Shown here piece after piece: positions 57,389-63,814 of a stretch of DNA of 64,000 nucleotides. Numbering within the stretch: the stretch's first letter is position 1; each line of letters begins with the position of its first letter. The notes beneath the pieces are model-generated. The model made no database searches, was not told where the DNA came from, and was given only the letters and a program-made list of their open reading frames with translations. The position numbers and the translations under genes are program-made. Source of the DNA: Hyphomicrobiales bacterium (GTDB lineage: Bacteria; Pseudomonadota; Alphaproteobacteria; Rhizobiales; JACESI01); NCBI GenBank assembly GCA_039973685.1, contig JBDWKL010000011.1:62001-126000 (forward strand), written 5' to 3'.

Positions 57389-57465
57389 GGGCGTGTAGCT
57401 CAGTTGGTTAGAGCCGACCGCTCATAACGGTCTGGTCGGGGGTTCAAGTCCCTCCGCGCCTACCA
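57389..57465 (+). tRNA. tRNA with CAT anticodon (elongator Met or Ile2)
   Basis: The cloverleaf is complete over 77 bases: acceptor GGGCGTG pairs with CGCGCCT (two G-T pairs), D stem GCTC/GAGC, anticodon stem GACCG/CGGTC with loop CTCATAA, T loop TTCAAGT, and an encoded CCA end. The anticodon is CAT. The acceptor and anticodon stem are not those of an initiator tRNA (no GGG/CCC in the anticodon stem). Elongator Met and lysidine-modified Ile2 cannot be told apart with certainty by eye; the TGGTC after the stem recalls Ile2 tRNAs. Confidence 0.95.
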
Positions 57466-57552
57466 CTTTCTCTCCATATAGTTCTGTTCATTTTTCCCGT
57501 TGCCATTAGGATGTGCTGCAATGATCGGCGTGGATGATGGAGTGTGCGGAAA

Positions 57553-58404
57553 ATGAGTGAACGGAAGATGCAGCCTCGGCGGAGTTTTATTTTCGCACCG
57601 GGCCTAAAGCCTGCCATGTTTCCCAAAGCCTTGGCCAGTGGCGCGGATATTGTTTGCGTTGAGCTTGAAGATGGTGTCGCACCCAAAGACAAGGCGCTCG
57701 CCCGTGCCAATGTGATGGCGATGTTTGCAGAGCCGCAAGCAGACGACGGGGTGGAGCGGGTTGTTCGCATCAATTGTGTGAAGGATGAGTTTGGCAAGGC
57801 TGATCTTGAGGCGATCATAAAAACCGAAACCCCGCCACCCTCGTTGATGCTGCCCAAGGTGAAGTCACCCGATGAGGTGATGGCTGTCGATAAGGTGCTC
57901 ACAGAGCGCGGCCATGCGTGTCGGTTGCAAATTATCATTGAAACCAATGAGGGGCTGGAAGCAGCCGTTGACATTGCCAATTCGAGCAAACGGATTGATG
58001 CGCTGTTGTTTGGTGGTGTGGATATGGCAGCTGATCTTCGCTGTGCGCAAACGTGGGATGCGTTGTTATATGCGCGCTCGCGCACGGTTCATGCCGCAGC
58101 GTCTGCTGGTATTGACGTGATTGATGTGCCGCATCTTGATCTTGATGATCGTGACGGGATGATTGAAGCGGCAAAGCGGGCGAAGGAACTAGGGTTTTCT
58201 GGCAAGGGATCAATCCACCCCAAGCAGATCGCGGACCTCAACGCCGTCTTCACGCCAAGCGCTGAAGAAATCGCGCGAGCAGAGCGGATCGTTCATGCAT
58301 TCAATGAGGCTGATACAGCGCTTGTTGTGATTGATGGCAAGTTGATTGAAAAACCAGTTTTGCGAGAAATGTACCGTATTTTGGCAGTGGCTGCGCGCTT
58401 TTAG
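57553..58404 (+). CDS. HpcH/HpaI aldolase-family CoA-ester lyase (CitE-like)
   Basis: The 283-residue TIM-barrel lyase is of the citrate lyase beta/malyl-CoA lyase type. Key stretches are RRSFIFAPGLKP, the metal-binding VCVELEDGVAPKDK, VVRINC (substrate Arg), LMLPKVKSPDEV, and the metal ligand region in IIIETNEGLEAAVDIAN. Which CoA ester it cleaves is not evident. An ATG at 57553 is chosen; a GTG at 57544 is in frame. It lies about 90 bases after the tRNA, and no CoA-ligase or other pathway gene is next to it. Confidence 0.9.
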   Translation: MSERKMQPRRSFIFAPGLKPAMFPKALASGADIVCVELEDGVAPKDKALARANVMAMFAEPQADDGVERVVRINCVKDEFGKADLEAIIKTETPPPSLMLPKVKSPDEVMAVDKVLTERGHACRLQIIIETNEGLEAAVDIANSSKRIDALLFGGVDMAADLRCAQTWDALLYARSRTVHAAASAGIDVIDVPHLDLDDRDGMIEAAKRAKELGFSGKGSIHPKQIADLNAVFTPSAEEIARAERIVHAFNEADTALVVIDGKLIEKPVLREMYRILAVAARF

Positions 58405-58519: not shown

Positions 58520-58954
58520 TTGGCACAGACAGATCAAGAGTTTGATTATCTACTTGATGAACAAGCAGGCTTTTTGCTGCGGCAGGTTAATCAGAGACAT
58601 CTGTCTATTTTCTCACGTTCCATCAAAGATCTAACGTCGACCCAGTTCGCAACTCTTGCGAAGATGCGTGAAATCGGTCCTGTTTCTCAAAATGATCTTG
58701 GGCGACAGATCGCGATGGATGCTGCGACCATGACAGGCATGGTGGATCGTTTAAGTAAGCGTGGGCTTGTGAGCACTAAGCCTGACCCCGCCGATCAACG
58801 CCGCGTTTTAGTGGAGCTTGAACCTCAAGCTTATAGACTGCTTGATGAATTGCTTGAGCGCGCCCACAAGATCACCGAGGACACGTTAGCTCCGTTGAAA
58901 AAGGCGGAGCGAAAACAGTTTATTGGGCTTTTGAATAAACTACTCGAACGCTAG
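58520..58954 (+). CDS. MarR-family regulator, TTG start
   Basis: The 144-residue protein has a MarR winged helix: LTSTQFATLAKMREIGPVSQ, LGRQIAMDAATMTGMVDRLSKRGL as recognition helix, and a wing with PDPADQRRVLVEL. The only start that keeps the first helices is TTG at 58520, because a stop lies in frame nine bases earlier (58511) and the next ATG is inside the helix-turn-helix; AAGAGG is spaced nine bases from the TTG. Effector and targets are unknown. The methyltransferase gene 83 bases downstream on the same strand may be its partner. Confidence 0.92.
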   Translation: MAQTDQEFDYLLDEQAGFLLRQVNQRHLSIFSRSIKDLTSTQFATLAKMREIGPVSQNDLGRQIAMDAATMTGMVDRLSKRGLVSTKPDPADQRRVLVELEPQAYRLLDELLERAHKITEDTLAPLKKAERKQFIGLLNKLLER

Positions 58955-59037
58955 GCGCTGATTTTATCGCAGCTCGTCGCAAAATCCTTGCATGAATTGT
59001 TTTTACGCTGTTCACTTTGTTGCAGGGGAGACGAACG

Positions 59038-59667
59038 ATGACTGATAAACAGCAGCAAGGATTTTTGAAGAGCGCTTATGATCATACGAGCGTGGCTGAG
59101 ACCTACGACATGTATGAAGCATGGGCAGATACCTATGATAGCGAGCTGGCTGAAAACGGTTACCAGCAACCAATACGTTGTGCGCTCGCATTAAAGGCGA
59201 TCATGCCAGAAGCCTCCAAGGTGCTCGACATCGGCTGCGGCACGGGCCTTAGCGGTGATGCTTTAAAGCGGGCCGGGTTTTCGAATATTGATGGCTGCGA
59301 TTTTTCTCCGGCCATGTTGGAAAAAGCCGAACTGACAAATACCTATCAGCGCCTCTTTCAAGCCGACCTTAACAAACCACCACTTGATGTTGCTGATCGC
59401 AGCTATGATGCGGTGACGGTTGTAGGCGTGTTTTCCATGCAGCATGTAAAGGTTGAGGCGATGGACGACCTTGTGCGCACGGTTCGGCCCGGTGGTGCGA
59501 TGGTGATCGGCCTTAATGACAAATTTTATCGCCAAGGAGATTTATGCGCTAAGTTGGACGCGCTTGCTGTGCTTGGTCGCATCAGCCAGATCGCTCATCA
59601 ACACGGCGAACATATTCCCGATATTGGTTTAACGGGTTGGGTGATTTCGCTCAAAGTTTTGGGCTAG
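59038..59667 (+). CDS. class I SAM-dependent methyltransferase, METTL27/WBSCR27-like
   Basis: The 209-residue protein carries the SAM loop VLDIGCGTGLSGDALKRAGF, the acidic pair region DGCDFSPAMLEKA and the post-II motif VVGVFSMQHV. The N-terminus has ETYDMYEAWADTYDSELAENGY, a pattern seen in the WBSCR27-type group. The substrate is unknown. GGGGAG precedes ATG 59038; the frame upstream to 59017 is not needed. It converges on the dddP candidate. Confidence 0.88.
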   Translation: MTDKQQQGFLKSAYDHTSVAETYDMYEAWADTYDSELAENGYQQPIRCALALKAIMPEASKVLDIGCGTGLSGDALKRAGFSNIDGCDFSPAMLEKAELTNTYQRLFQADLNKPPLDVADRSYDAVTVVGVFSMQHVKVEAMDDLVRTVRPGGAMVIGLNDKFYRQGDLCAKLDALAVLGRISQIAHQHGEHIPDIGLTGWVISLKVLG

Positions 59668-59689
59668 TATTTTCCCCTTATCTCCGCGT

Positions 59690-61042
59690 TTATTTGTGAA
59701 TGCCTACCATCAATTTTTCATCAAATGGGCAGGTGGTAATATTCACAGGGCCGTCTTCCGTAACGATCACTTGGTCTTCTAGCTTGATGCCGTTTTTGCC
59801 GCCAACTTCGCCAAGGTATACTTCGACACAAAAACACATGCCTACTTGGACTTCATAGTTGAAGCCGTCGGCGATGTAGTCCTCTGGATAGGCAATGCTT
59901 GGGAACTCGTCACAAAGACCAACCCCATGCATTTTGACGCCGTAGCGTTGCTCCACGAAACGATCTGGCAGCATGTGGCCTTTAAAGGTGAGGTCTTTGA
60001 ATGATGTGCCCGGCTGCAAGAGTTCCACATTGGTCATGATGTGTTCATGGGCGATGGCGTGGAGGTCGCATTGTTCTTTGCTTGGCAGGTCATCGCCACA
60101 ATACCATGTGCGGGAGATGTCGCAGCAAAAACCGTAGGGGCCAACAAGGTCGGTATCAAAGCCGAGGAGTTCGCCTGCTTCAATGCGGCGCGGTCCAGCT
60201 TCTTGCATCCACGGGTTGGTGCGAGGGCCTGAATTGAGGATGCGGGTTTCAATCCATTCTCCGCCGCGCGCGATGTTTTCAGCATGAAGCACAGACCAAA
60301 GCTCAACCTCTGCAATGCCAGGCTTCAACGCTTTACGCATTTCGGCAACCGCGATTTCGCAGGTGGCTGACGCGCATTTCATGGCTTTGATTTCTTCAGG
60401 TGTTTTGATGAGGCGTGCTTGTTCGCAAACCATGCCACCATTCATGATTTCAAGACCCTCAGCCTCAAGGGCATGAATGCCTTCAGCCTCCCATCGGTCA
60501 AGAGCGAGACGCTTATTGTCGCCGCAATGGGTGCGCATGAGGTCTGCGATACTTGCTGCAAATTCTTGCGCTATCCGTTCGCTGGCGTCCCCTGCCACGA
60601 AATAGAATATGCCGGCGCCGTGGCGGATTTCTTTGATCAAGGGGAGGTGGGCTGAGAGGTGATCACAGCCATGAAAATCCCACAGCACAATATGACCATC
60701 TGCTGTCACGAACGCGGCACGGGCGGGGTTATGCATAATCCATATATGCATGTTGGAGCTATCGGTTGCATAGCGGATGTTCAACGGATCAAAGAGCAGG
60801 GCCGCGCCATAGTCGTGTTTTTTGAGTTCCGCGCAAAGACGATCCAACCGCGCTTGGCGCATGGTCTCGAGATGAGGGGCTTCAAGGCCGAGGGCTTCCC
60901 ATTCTTGAAAGGCGATGTCTGTCGGGCCAATTTCAACGCGGTTCTTATCGTCAGGCGTGCCGTCTGGCCTTAGCGGGGCAGTGGGCCTGCGCCGCGAAGG
61001 GTCGATCTTGCGATTTGAGATCGAATACGGATTGTCTTTCAT
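59690..61042 (-). CDS. dddP: DMSP lyase candidate, DddP-type M24 metalloenzyme
   Basis: DddP splits dimethylsulfoniopropionate into dimethyl sulfide and acrylate. The protein is 450 residues, the length of that family. The N-terminus shows RKIDPSR, TPDDKNRVEIGPTDIAF and LLFDPLNIRYATDSSNM, all matching DddP as I recall it. Ligand positions are complete: Asp296 and Asp298 in GFDTDLVG, Asp308 in CCDISRTW, His372 in KMHGVGLCDEF, Glu407 in CVEVYLGE and Glu422 in KLEDQV. HAENIARGGEWIETRILNSGPRTNPW is also a family stretch (positions 253-278). ATG 61042 has AAGGGG ahead; a GTG at 61045 is adjacent. No other ddd gene is near. An M24 peptidase cannot be fully excluded without assay. Confidence 0.82.
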   Translation of the reverse strand: MKDNPYSISNRKIDPSRRRPTAPLRPDGTPDDKNRVEIGPTDIAFQEWEALGLEAPHLETMRQARLDRLCAELKKHDYGAALLFDPLNIRYATDSSNMHIWIMHNPARAAFVTADGHIVLWDFHGCDHLSAHLPLIKEIRHGAGIFYFVAGDASERIAQEFAASIADLMRTHCGDNKRLALDRWEAEGIHALEAEGLEIMNGGMVCEQARLIKTPEEIKAMKCASATCEIAVAEMRKALKPGIAEVELWSVLHAENIARGGEWIETRILNSGPRTNPWMQEAGPRRIEAGELLGFDTDLVGPYGFCCDISRTWYCGDDLPSKEQCDLHAIAHEHIMTNVELLQPGTSFKDLTFKGHMLPDRFVEQRYGVKMHGVGLCDEFPSIAYPEDYIADGFNYEVQVGMCFCVEVYLGEVGGKNGIKLEDQVIVTEDGPVNITTCPFDEKLMVGIHK

Positions 61043-61144
61043 CACAGCGCCCCTTGTTCTTGCGTTTAAAGGATGCGTTGAAACTGTGATTATTAATAGT
61101 TGAAAGCCGACATTTTATGTTGGGTGATGCGGCGTTTTATTCGT

Positions 61145-62002
61145 CTATTCTATAGCGCCTAGTGCCTTCAATTCATTCCACGCTCGCACGATATATTGGG
61201 TTTTAAATTGATGGCCACCTTCATGGAGGCAGAGCTCTAAAACTTTTTCATCTTTGTTGCGTGCGCGTTGGCATTTGAGGTCGAACGGTTCTGAACGCTC
61301 TTCACCTTCATAGCCACCTTCGGCTTTGTACATCGATAGCACGGTGAAGATATTGCCTTGGCTGGTGTTGCGGATGGGGCGGCCTTTTAGCGGGACGATT
61401 TTGTCTGATGTGCCGTGGTAGTGAAACACGTGTGCGGGCGGTGTGTCGCAGCTTTGAGGCGTGGGCGACCAAAATGTGCCAGCCATAGGCGCGAAGCCTG
61501 CGAAACTTTCGCTGCGCGCGCAAGCAAGCGTCCATGTCATCATGCCGCCTGCTGAAAACCCAGTCATCATCAGGTTGGATGTGTTGATCGGGAAACGTTC
61601 GCTTGCGTCTTTGATGACGGCATCGAAATATTCTGGTTCTTTTTGCTCTTCAACAGGTGTTTCGCTCGGTGAATTGGGGAGCAACCAATCATCACCGCCA
61701 GATTTTACAGCGATGAGGGCGAGGCCAAGGTCTGAGACGGCTTTGCCGAGCGACTTGTTACGCATGGCGCCAGCTGCTGTTCCCTTGTAGCCATGAGCAT
61801 AGACAATCGCGCCAACGGGCGTTTTGCCATCGTGACCTTCTGGCATACGAATAAGGTAATGGCGGTTTTCTAAAATGTCGCAGTTCGTATCAGCGCCGCA
61901 GGCATTGGCGTGGTTTGGTTGGAAGCTCAGCCCAGCTGCTAATGTTGTGGCTGCGATGGCGAGACTTGCCATGCTGCTTGAAATTTTCTGACTGTGCGCC
62001 AT
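61145..62002 (-). CDS. secreted PHB depolymerase/feruloyl esterase-like alpha/beta hydrolase
   Basis: The 285-residue protein has a signal peptide (about 1-33, NHANA) and an LpqC-type fold. The nucleophile is in MTGFSAGGMMTW, the Asp in YHGTSDKIVPL and the His in LHEGGHQFKT, giving a full triad; AHGYKGTAAG supplies the oxyanion loop. Several Cys suggest disulfides outside the cytoplasm. ATG 62002 has GGGAG nine bases ahead; ATG 62009 is too close to it. It is upstream of dddP on the same strand with a 102-base gap, so linkage is possible but not shown. Confidence 0.88.
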   Translation of the reverse strand: MAHSQKISSSMASLAIAATTLAAGLSFQPNHANACGADTNCDILENRHYLIRMPEGHDGKTPVGAIVYAHGYKGTAAGAMRNKSLGKAVSDLGLALIAVKSGGDDWLLPNSPSETPVEEQKEPEYFDAVIKDASERFPINTSNLMMTGFSAGGMMTWTLACARSESFAGFAPMAGTFWSPTPQSCDTPPAHVFHYHGTSDKIVPLKGRPIRNTSQGNIFTVLSMYKAEGGYEGEERSEPFDLKCQRARNKDEKVLELCLHEGGHQFKTQYIVRAWNELKALGAIE

Positions 62003-62158
62003 TGCCCGCATCTCCCATTTGTTCGCCTAAACATGCAGCAATGGTTGAAAATTTCCACCTCAAAATGGTGTTACTTAATCCCGTACCACTCACAACGCTT
62101 GCACCGTCGTCTTTAACCCCCTAAATAGGCAGCAAATCTAAGCAAAGCGGGAACTTTT

Positions 62159-63814
62159 ATGGCACGCGAATTTATCTACTTTATGCAAGGTCTATCGAAA
62201 GCCTATACGGGCGGCAAAAAGGTTTTGGATAATATCCACCTTTCATTCTACCCCGATGCAAAAATCGGCGTTCTTGGTCCCAATGGTTCTGGTAAATCTA
62301 CCTTGCTAAAAATCATGGCGGGTCTTGAAAAAGATTTCACTGGTGAAGCATGGGTCGCTAAAGGCGCAACTGTTGGCTACCTGCCGCAGGAACCGCAGCT
62401 TGATGAGAGCAAAGACGTTAAAGGCAATGTCATGGAAGGCGTTGCCAAGCAGCAAGCCATTCTTGATCGCTATAACGAACTGATGATGAACTATTCTGAT
62501 GAGACCGCCGATGAAGGTGCGGCTCTTCAAGATCAGATTGATGCTGAAAATCTTTGGGACTTGGACAGCAAAGTTGAAATGGCGATGGATGCGCTTCGTT
62601 GTCCGCCGTCTGATAGTTCTGTTGAACACCTCTCAGGTGGTGAGAAGCGTCGTGTTGCGCTTTGTAAGCTTTTGCTTGAAGAGCCTGATCTGCTCCTCCT
62701 CGATGAGCCTACCAACCACCTTGATGCGGAAACTGTTGCTTGGCTTGAAAAGCACCTGCGTGAATTTAAAGGCGCTGTGTTGATCATCACCCACGACCGT
62801 TACTTCCTTGACAATGTAACGGGTTGGATTTTGGAACTCGACCGTGGCACGGGCATTCCTTATGAGGGTAATTATTCGGCCTATCTTGAGGCTAAGGCGA
62901 AACGTCTTAAGCAAGAAGGCCGCGAAGACGAAGCGCGCCAAAAAGCATTGGACCGCGAGCGCGAGTGGATGGGGGCAAGCCCGAAAGCACGCCAAGCCAA
63001 ATCCAAAGCGCGTATCAAAGCCTATGATGAATTGCTTAAACGCAACGAGGATCGTTCACCGGATAAAGCACAAATCGTTATTCCGGCTGGCCCACGTCTC
63101 GGCGATGTTGTGATTGATGCTGAAAACATCAAGAAGGGTTACGATGATCGTCTGTTGATCGGTGATCTTTCATTCAGACTACCACCAGGCGGTATCGTCG
63201 GTGTTATCGGCCCCAATGGTGCGGGTAAATCGACATTGTTTAAAATGATCACCGAGCAAGAAACACCTGATGATGGTTCGATCCGTTTGGGTGAAACTGT
63301 CAAGCTTGGTTATGTGGACCAAAGCCGTGATGATATGGATGCAAAGAAAACCGTTTGGGAAGAAATTTCTGAAGGCAATGACATCATCACACTTGGCAAA
63401 CGTGAAGTGAACTCGCGCGCTTATTGTTCAAGCTTCAACTTTAAGGGCGGCGATCAGCAACAACCTGTTGGCACGCTTTCAGGTGGTCAGCGTAACCGTG
63501 TGCACCTTGCCAAGATGTTGAAATCTGGTTCGAACGTCATCCTGCTCGATGAGCCGACCAATGACCTTGATACAGAAACCTTGGCAGCGCTCGAAGATGC
63601 GCTCGAAGATTTCGCAGGTTGCGCCGTGGTCATCTCTCACGATCGTATGTTCCTCGATCGGTTGGCAACGCACATTTTGGCGTTTGAAGGCAACAGCCAT
63701 GTGGAGTGGTTTGAAGGCAACTATGATGACTATGAGGAAGACAAAAGACGTCGCCTCGGTCCTGATGCCGTTGAGAACCCGCGTCGCATTAAGTACCAGC
63801 CGTTTACGCGCTAA
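62159..63814 (+). CDS. ettA: energy-dependent translational throttle protein EttA (ABC-F)
   Basis: This ribosome-associated ABC-F ATPase has 551 residues. ABC domain 1 has Walker [21 protein letters not shown] and [12 protein letters not shown]; the linker arm that reaches the ribosomal E site follows, with [23 protein letters not shown] domain 2 has [20 protein letters not shown] and [11 protein letters not shown]. It ends early after [10 protein letters not shown], as EttA does, unlike Uup. Single gene divergent from the secreted esterase gene. Confidence 0.96.

Follow-up and report, generated by a model that had tools for sequence, protein, structure and literature searches.

A very probable DddP-type DMSP lyase, somewhat diverged, in a genome of probable Hyphomicrobiales background

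Results

Overview

The window analyzed here, a stretch of 64,000 nucleotides, encodes close to its right end a protein that is very probably a genuine DddP, an enzyme that would cleave DMSP to dimethyl sulfide (DMS) and acrylate as the published members of the family do. This reading is based on the sequence score, the clade, the fold, the conserved residues, the literature on related enzymes, and candidate partner genes elsewhere in the genome. Against it stand a score 10 bits under the curated cut-off of the DddP model, the longest end branch of its subclade, and the lack of an adjacent DMSP gene. Taken as a whole, the protein is a somewhat diverged, otherwise ordinary member of the DddP family.

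Gene organization

The dddP gene is an intact open reading frame of 450 codons on the minus strand, running from an ATG at position 61042 to a stop codon at 59690, with an alternative GTG one codon upstream at 61045; the first frame of the plus strand across the same segment contains seven stops. Ahead of the ATG is an AAGGGG stretch that we read as a putative ribosome site. The positions of the gene, its neighbors and its key residues are listed in Table 1. The neighbors are those described in the sequence-only reading, with an esterase gene 102 bp upstream on the same strand and, on the opposite strand, a methyltransferase gene ending 22 bp from the dddP stop codon and a MarR gene behind it; to these we add a gene for a CitE-like lyase. 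No DMSP gene adjoins dddP in the window. The GC content of dddP (0.50–0.55) is like that of its surroundings, and the composition is flat around the gene with no island signal.

Table 1. Features of the window, with positions counted from its first nucleotide
Feature	Position	Strand	Basis or remark
dddP, probable DddP-family (peptidase M24 fold) DMSP lyase, 450 aa	59690..61042	-	ORF, similarity, tree, fold
Asp296, metal ligand (RlDddP Asp295)	60155..60157	-	alignment
Asp298, metal ligand (RlDddP Asp297)	60149..60151	-	alignment
Asp308, metal ligand (RlDddP Asp307)	60119..60121	-	alignment
Tyr367, proposed catalytic or sulfur-binding residue (RlDddP Tyr366)	59942..59944	-	alignment; PMC4108388, PMC5395565
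His372, metal ligand (RlDddP His371)	59927..59929	-	alignment
Asp378, proposed catalytic base (RlDddP Asp377)	59909..59911	-	alignment; PMC4108388
Glu407, metal ligand (RlDddP Glu406)	59822..59824	-	alignment
Glu422, metal ligand (RlDddP Glu421)	59777..59779	-	alignment
Esterase / short-chain PHA-depolymerase-like protein	61145..62011	-	below NCBIfam cut-offs
SAM-dependent methyltransferase, convergent with dddP	59017..59667	+	similarity
MarR-family regulator	58520..58954	+	similarity
CitE/RipC-like HpcH-HpaI lyase	57544..58404	+	similarity; beyond MarR gene
tRNA-Met	57389..57465	+	last feature of block common to congeners

Relationship to DddP proteins

Several lines of comparison place the protein within the DddP family. 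First, the best matches in the PDB are the chains of the Ruegeria lacuscaerulensis enzyme RlDddP (E = 4e-152) and the Roseobacter denitrificans enzyme RdDddP (E = 5e-141), after which there is a drop to prolidases at 6e-14. The NCBIfam DddP model NF043017 gives 590 bits (E = 2.8e-177), and Pfam domains PF00557 and PF01321 are both over their cut-offs. Chance similarity to DddP is thus excluded at the sequence level by the E values to RlDddP and to the DddP model. The curated equivalog cut-off of NF043017 is 600 bits, so that the NCBI rule alone would not name the protein DddP. Among ten other proteins scored with the same model, seven from the DddP core reach 610–870 bits (four relatives from the window's subclade 610–631, Oceanisphaera and Oceanimonas 626–628, and Loktanella 870), and three M24 relatives outside the core reach 378, 440 and 483; the score of the window protein therefore sits with the DddPs, though below all seven tested.

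Secondly, the sequence-only reading had named placement outside the DddP clade as the result that would count against it, and the protein falls inside. In a maximum-likelihood tree of 62 rows (13 of 75 were left out as long branches, distant rows or near duplicates) the window protein lies with RlDddP and RdDddP in a DddP core of 48 rows with support of 100/99. Within this core it belongs to a subclade of 12 rows (support 98/95) whose members come from Mesorhizobium, a Roseitalea bin, a Kiloniellales bin, a Roseovarius bin, gammaproteobacterial bins and genomes of the window's own order; many rows of the tree are metagenome bins whose taxonomy may be wrong. Its end branch of 0.44 is the longest in the subclade, and its exact sister is not resolved. 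Three trees agree on both the DddP core and the window's subclade, including one of 102 rows drawn from 118 after removal of L071, which is partial, and 15 redundant rows; the loci from named genomes are the best 80 of the scan, and the tree was built without the fungal, HWgs001 and O. doudoroffii DddP enzymes.

Thirdly, an AlphaFold2 model of the protein (22 sequences, mean pLDDT 85.3) has the predicted whole-chain fold of the DddP crystal structures. In a Foldseek search the four DddP chains come out on top with a TM score of 0.91 by query length, the others among the 50 matches listed reaching at most 0.68, and in VIA-align the same four chains have Z scores of 48.6–48.8, with the next match at 32.4.

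Metal ligands and catalytic residues

The sequence-only reading had picked out Asp296, Asp298, Asp308, His372, Glu407 and Glu422 as the metal ligands, and these positions are correct, each aligning with a ligand of RlDddP. The six ligands of that enzyme are given in PMC4108388, in which Tyr366 and Asp377 are proposed to lie above the metals, and the position of Asp297 is described as a metal ligand without conservation in methionine aminopeptidases. In an alignment of 102 proteins, comprising 85 rows of the DddP core and 17 rows outside it, the eight DddP residues (the six ligands, the tyrosine and the aspartate) are identical throughout with a single exception: in the Roseitalea DddP (L049:8001-9329), which belongs to the same subclade as the window protein, Asp replaces the metal ligand Glu407. 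Three of the 17 outside rows that keep the ligands are annotated only as Xaa-Pro peptidase family. In a separate set of 17 sequences the ligands are likewise present in all, including four M24 proteins outside the core (L014, L020, L028 and L031), and among 11 farther M24 relatives with 27–45% identity, four keep all eight residues and seven lack at least one. We note that more distant M24 relatives from the same order, at L157, L158, L161, L162, L163, L166 and L167, each lack at least one DddP metal or catalytic residue.

The metal ligands were rejected as a sole discriminator of DddP, as they are also kept in rows outside the core. Because all 17 outside rows of the alignment keep them, the six ligands alone would be weak evidence for DddP, and the case is carried by the clade, the fold and nine core-specific positions. 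These nine positions tell the 85 core rows apart from the 17 others, and at each of the nine the window protein has the core letter (the core set was defined by the tree, and this result is thus not independent of it). Wherever 95% of the other core rows share a letter in the 102-row alignment, the window protein has it too. In the conserved segment before the first metal ligand, WFQECG is the common form, found in 56 of the 85 core rows, and WMQEAG is found in ten, all of them in the window's subclade and including the window protein itself. The rows of this subclade without WMQEAG are L005, L049 and L065, and L049 has WFQEAG.

Candidate pathway partners

As the sequence-only reading had claimed, no gene for acrylate use or DMSP transport adjoins dddP. 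This is normal for dddP and no weakness of the assignment, because acuI and dddP are not tightly linked in Roseobacters and candidate genes are present elsewhere in the genome. According to PMC3338564, acuI is not tightly linked to dddP in any Roseobacter, with a member of SAR116 as the exception. Our survey of dddP neighbors agrees: among 94 of the 96 loci (L047 and L130 were left aside), six have an AcuI-family gene as the immediate upstream neighbor of dddP, of which four are labelled SAR116 and one groups with them (L074, L077, L078, L082 and L100 being the SAR116-type loci), and one is from Arenicellales (L107). Membership of the AcuI family was checked with a model at one of the six loci, where the protein passes the cut-off of the family and falls short of that for the AcuI equivalog; the neighbors were called with a simple ORF caller that may miss or misplace some, and short contigs cut some of the neighborhoods. 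The Arenicellales arrangement goes beyond the single SAR116 case described in PMC3338564 (2012).

Candidate partners are encoded elsewhere in the window's 3.2 Mb genome. An AcuI-family reductase scores 364.8 against a family cut-off of 297 and is under the AcuI equivalog cut-off; the family is not tied to dddP, since two of three congeners without dddP have members over the cut-off. There is also a gene for a BCCT carrier, and PrpE-like synthetases score 709 against a cut-off of 827. A free-standing DmdA-like protein (L155:8881-10014) scores 398.9 against the DMSP demethylase cut-off of 410, and its gene adjoins one for an O-acetylhomoserine aminocarboxypropyltransferase; a similar DmdA-like protein in congener G118 scores 379. 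Since the scores fall short for the AcuI equivalog, DmdA and PrpE alike, none of these putative partners is certain; together they would lend plausibility to DMSP use without proving it. No match to the cupin DMSP lyases (PF16867) was found in the window's genome. The same genome has ten matches to the DmdA (GcvT-like) model, six of them in open frames of more than 800 aa, a number that, for a genome of this size, suggests much methylated-amine oxidation.

Natural substrate

The neighbor survey also bears on the substrate. In eight of the 94 loci an MttB-like methyltransferase is encoded no more than four genes away from the dddP homologue; two of these loci (L052 and L065) are in the window's subclade and one (L129) is outside the core. 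One of the methyltransferases was checked against the family model and scores below its cut-off. At the Mesorhizobium tamadayense locus (L052:2739-7930) genes for an MttB-like protein, an MtgC-like corrinoid protein and a GbdR-like regulator precede dddP, the latter two proteins both scoring below their model cut-offs, and this arrangement suggests a putative betaine pathway. Along with the high DddP Km for DMSP (14–17 mM; PMC5395565), these neighbors raise the prospect that the window protein is an M24 enzyme of the DddP clade whose main substrate is a nitrogen betaine or a related onium compound (for example beta-alanine betaine, giving trimethylamine and acrylate), with cleavage of DMSP as a side activity. 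We consider this unlikely. No MttB-type gene is beside the window's dddP, and a Roseovarius nubinhibens dddP mutant is reported to make only 10% of the wild-type DMS (PMC5395565). The AcuI-family genes directly upstream of dddP in six of the 94 loci would fit an acrylate product, though they do not separate the two substrates, because beta-alanine betaine also yields acrylate. A broader version, in which the WMQEAG subclade would be a lineage of DddP fold common to Hyphomicrobiales and Gammaproteobacteria with a nitrogen betaine as the natural substrate, or with sulfur and nitrogen onium compounds accepted alike, appears less probable still; if true, the mttB, corrinoid and gbdR neighbors of some members would be the downstream pathway.

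Genome background and congeners

The sequence-only reading had placed the window in a probable Hyphomicrobiales background, which is consistent, at the level of order only, with the best matches of the EttA protein encoded in the window. The seven best listed in a plasmid collection are from Sinorhizobium, Shinella, Rhizobium and Methylobacterium (72–80%), all genera that we take to be Hyphomicrobiales, followed by Pseudorhodobacter at 67%. Of 297 genomes from the order, 62 give at least one match at E <= 1e-30, and 11 encode a protein of the DddP core (rows of at least 560 bits), the ten others all being in the core by tree.

Searches of the whole genomes of three congeners (G043, G118 and G083) found no dddP. 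A block that extends up to the tRNA-Met gene is common to the congeners, as one piece in G043 and G118 and split between two contigs in G083. The congeners also retain the esterase-EttA pair, at another place; the tRNA-Met gene and the esterase gene are about 31 kb apart on one contig in G043, and on different contigs in G118 and G083. The segment with the CitE, MarR, methyltransferase and dddP genes was not found in the fetched congener neighborhoods, the absence of the first three having been assessed at the protein level in seven fetched stretches and at the DNA level in the whole congener genomes. Because the congeners lack dddP and the segment was not found in their fetched neighborhoods, a gain of dddP in this lineage or its loss in the others is likely, the more parsimonious of the two being gain in this species. 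The congener arrangement shows no clean insertion with an empty site and does not separate gain, loss and rearrangement.

Functional links between dddP and its neighbors were also considered. A functional pair of esterase and dddP is unlikely, and the esterase is probably unrelated to dddP, because all three congeners have the esterase gene while lacking dddP. In G043 and G118 the genes near the esterase are instead, with names given by eye, those of a 2-hydroxyacid dehydrogenase, an amidase and a TRAP transporter. A linkage of CitE with dddP was set aside, since beyond the window the loci compared show a CitE-like gene near dddP in a single genome (G133, L004/L136); there, in a genome of the same order, a CitE-like lyase gene (L136:10479-11426) adjoins dddP.

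A recent acquisition that looks intact and is non-functional or unexpressed would fit the absence of dddP from all three congeners and the long end branch, and no sigma-70-like promoter match was found in 59600-62250, although promoters in Alphaproteobacteria often differ from the sigma-70 consensus. The full-length frame, the eight retained residues and a GC content like that of the surroundings make such an acquisition very improbable.

Discussion

Proposed activity

The same fold, the two Pfam domains and the general M24 ligands would suit an ordinary M24 peptidase of the prolidase or aminopeptidase P type, but this is barely credible with Asp298 and the Tyr367/Asp378 pair kept while one or more of the eight residues are missing from seven of the 11 farther M24 relatives, with prolidases scoring far lower by sequence (E = 6e-14 against 4e-152) and by fold (Z 32.4 against 48.8), and with RlDddP described in PMC5395565 as having no measurable activity on valine-proline.

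As a DddP lyase, the window protein would be a homodimer with a two-metal, probably iron, center held by the six ligands of Table 1. With its carboxylate bound to a metal, DMSP would lose the alpha proton to Asp378 (acting with Tyr367) and be split by beta-elimination into dimethyl sulfide and acrylate. We infer the metal, mechanism and activity from work on RlDddP, RdDddP and RnDddP together with the conserved residues and the clade; the mechanism set out in PMC4108388 and PMC5395565 involves two iron-type metals, six residues, binding of the DMSP carboxylate, proton removal by an aspartate (Asp377 being favored) and elimination. Further conversion of the acrylate may depend on an acyl-CoA ligase and the AcuI-family reductase, with genes elsewhere in the genome, and DMSP uptake is possibly through the BCCT carrier. 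DddPs are reported also to cleave DMSOP, with most preferring DMSP (PMC10686828).

Significance

The assignment would extend a proven family of DMSP lyases to one more, probably Hyphomicrobiales, lineage. The gain is modest, as an earlier study already describes DddP from Hyphomicrobiales, in a Rhodobiaceae symbiont whose enzyme was shown to be active (PMC10989825); no report on the window's subclade was found in the open-license literature searched. The protein offers a diverged test case, at 52–53% identity to the solved enzyme RlDddP, and the DmdA-like protein in the same genome raises the prospect that DMSP cleavage and demethylation coexist. The family-wide neighbor survey, moreover, poses a testable question on the natural substrate of some DddP subclades.

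Comparison with known DddP systems

The closest structural comparison is with RlDddP (PDB 4RZY, 4S00 and 4S01), which shares with the predicted model the whole-chain fold (Z 48.8, rmsd 1.7 over 427 residues), the six metal ligands, and the residues equivalent to its Tyr366 and Asp377. It differs in lying in the Roseobacter branch and in having WFQECG where the window protein has WMQEAG. RdDddP (PDB 4B28), also in the Roseobacter branch, has the fold and catalytic residues in common with the window protein at 49% identity. RdDddP itself is reported to share 50% with an Aspergillus enzyme and 32% with a Fusarium enzyme, both of which make DMS in E. coli and fall in one clade with it (PMC4108388), and this range, wider than the distance from RdDddP to the window protein, supports the lyase reading.

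Within the window's subclade, the putative DddPs of Mesorhizobium waimense (L050), M. tamadayense (L052) and Roseitalea sp. (L049) share 63% identity with the window protein and have different gene neighbors. At the level of the order, Hyphomicrobiales are among the taxa to which a metagenome study attributes its combined set of dddD, dddX and dddP genes (PMC13280387). The DddP of Rhodobiaceae bacterium HWgs001, the symbiont mentioned above, is likewise from a bacterium assigned to Hyphomicrobiales and makes DMS in E. coli; according to PMC10989825 its closest counterpart is Oceanimonas DddP2 (55%), DddP1 branching separately.
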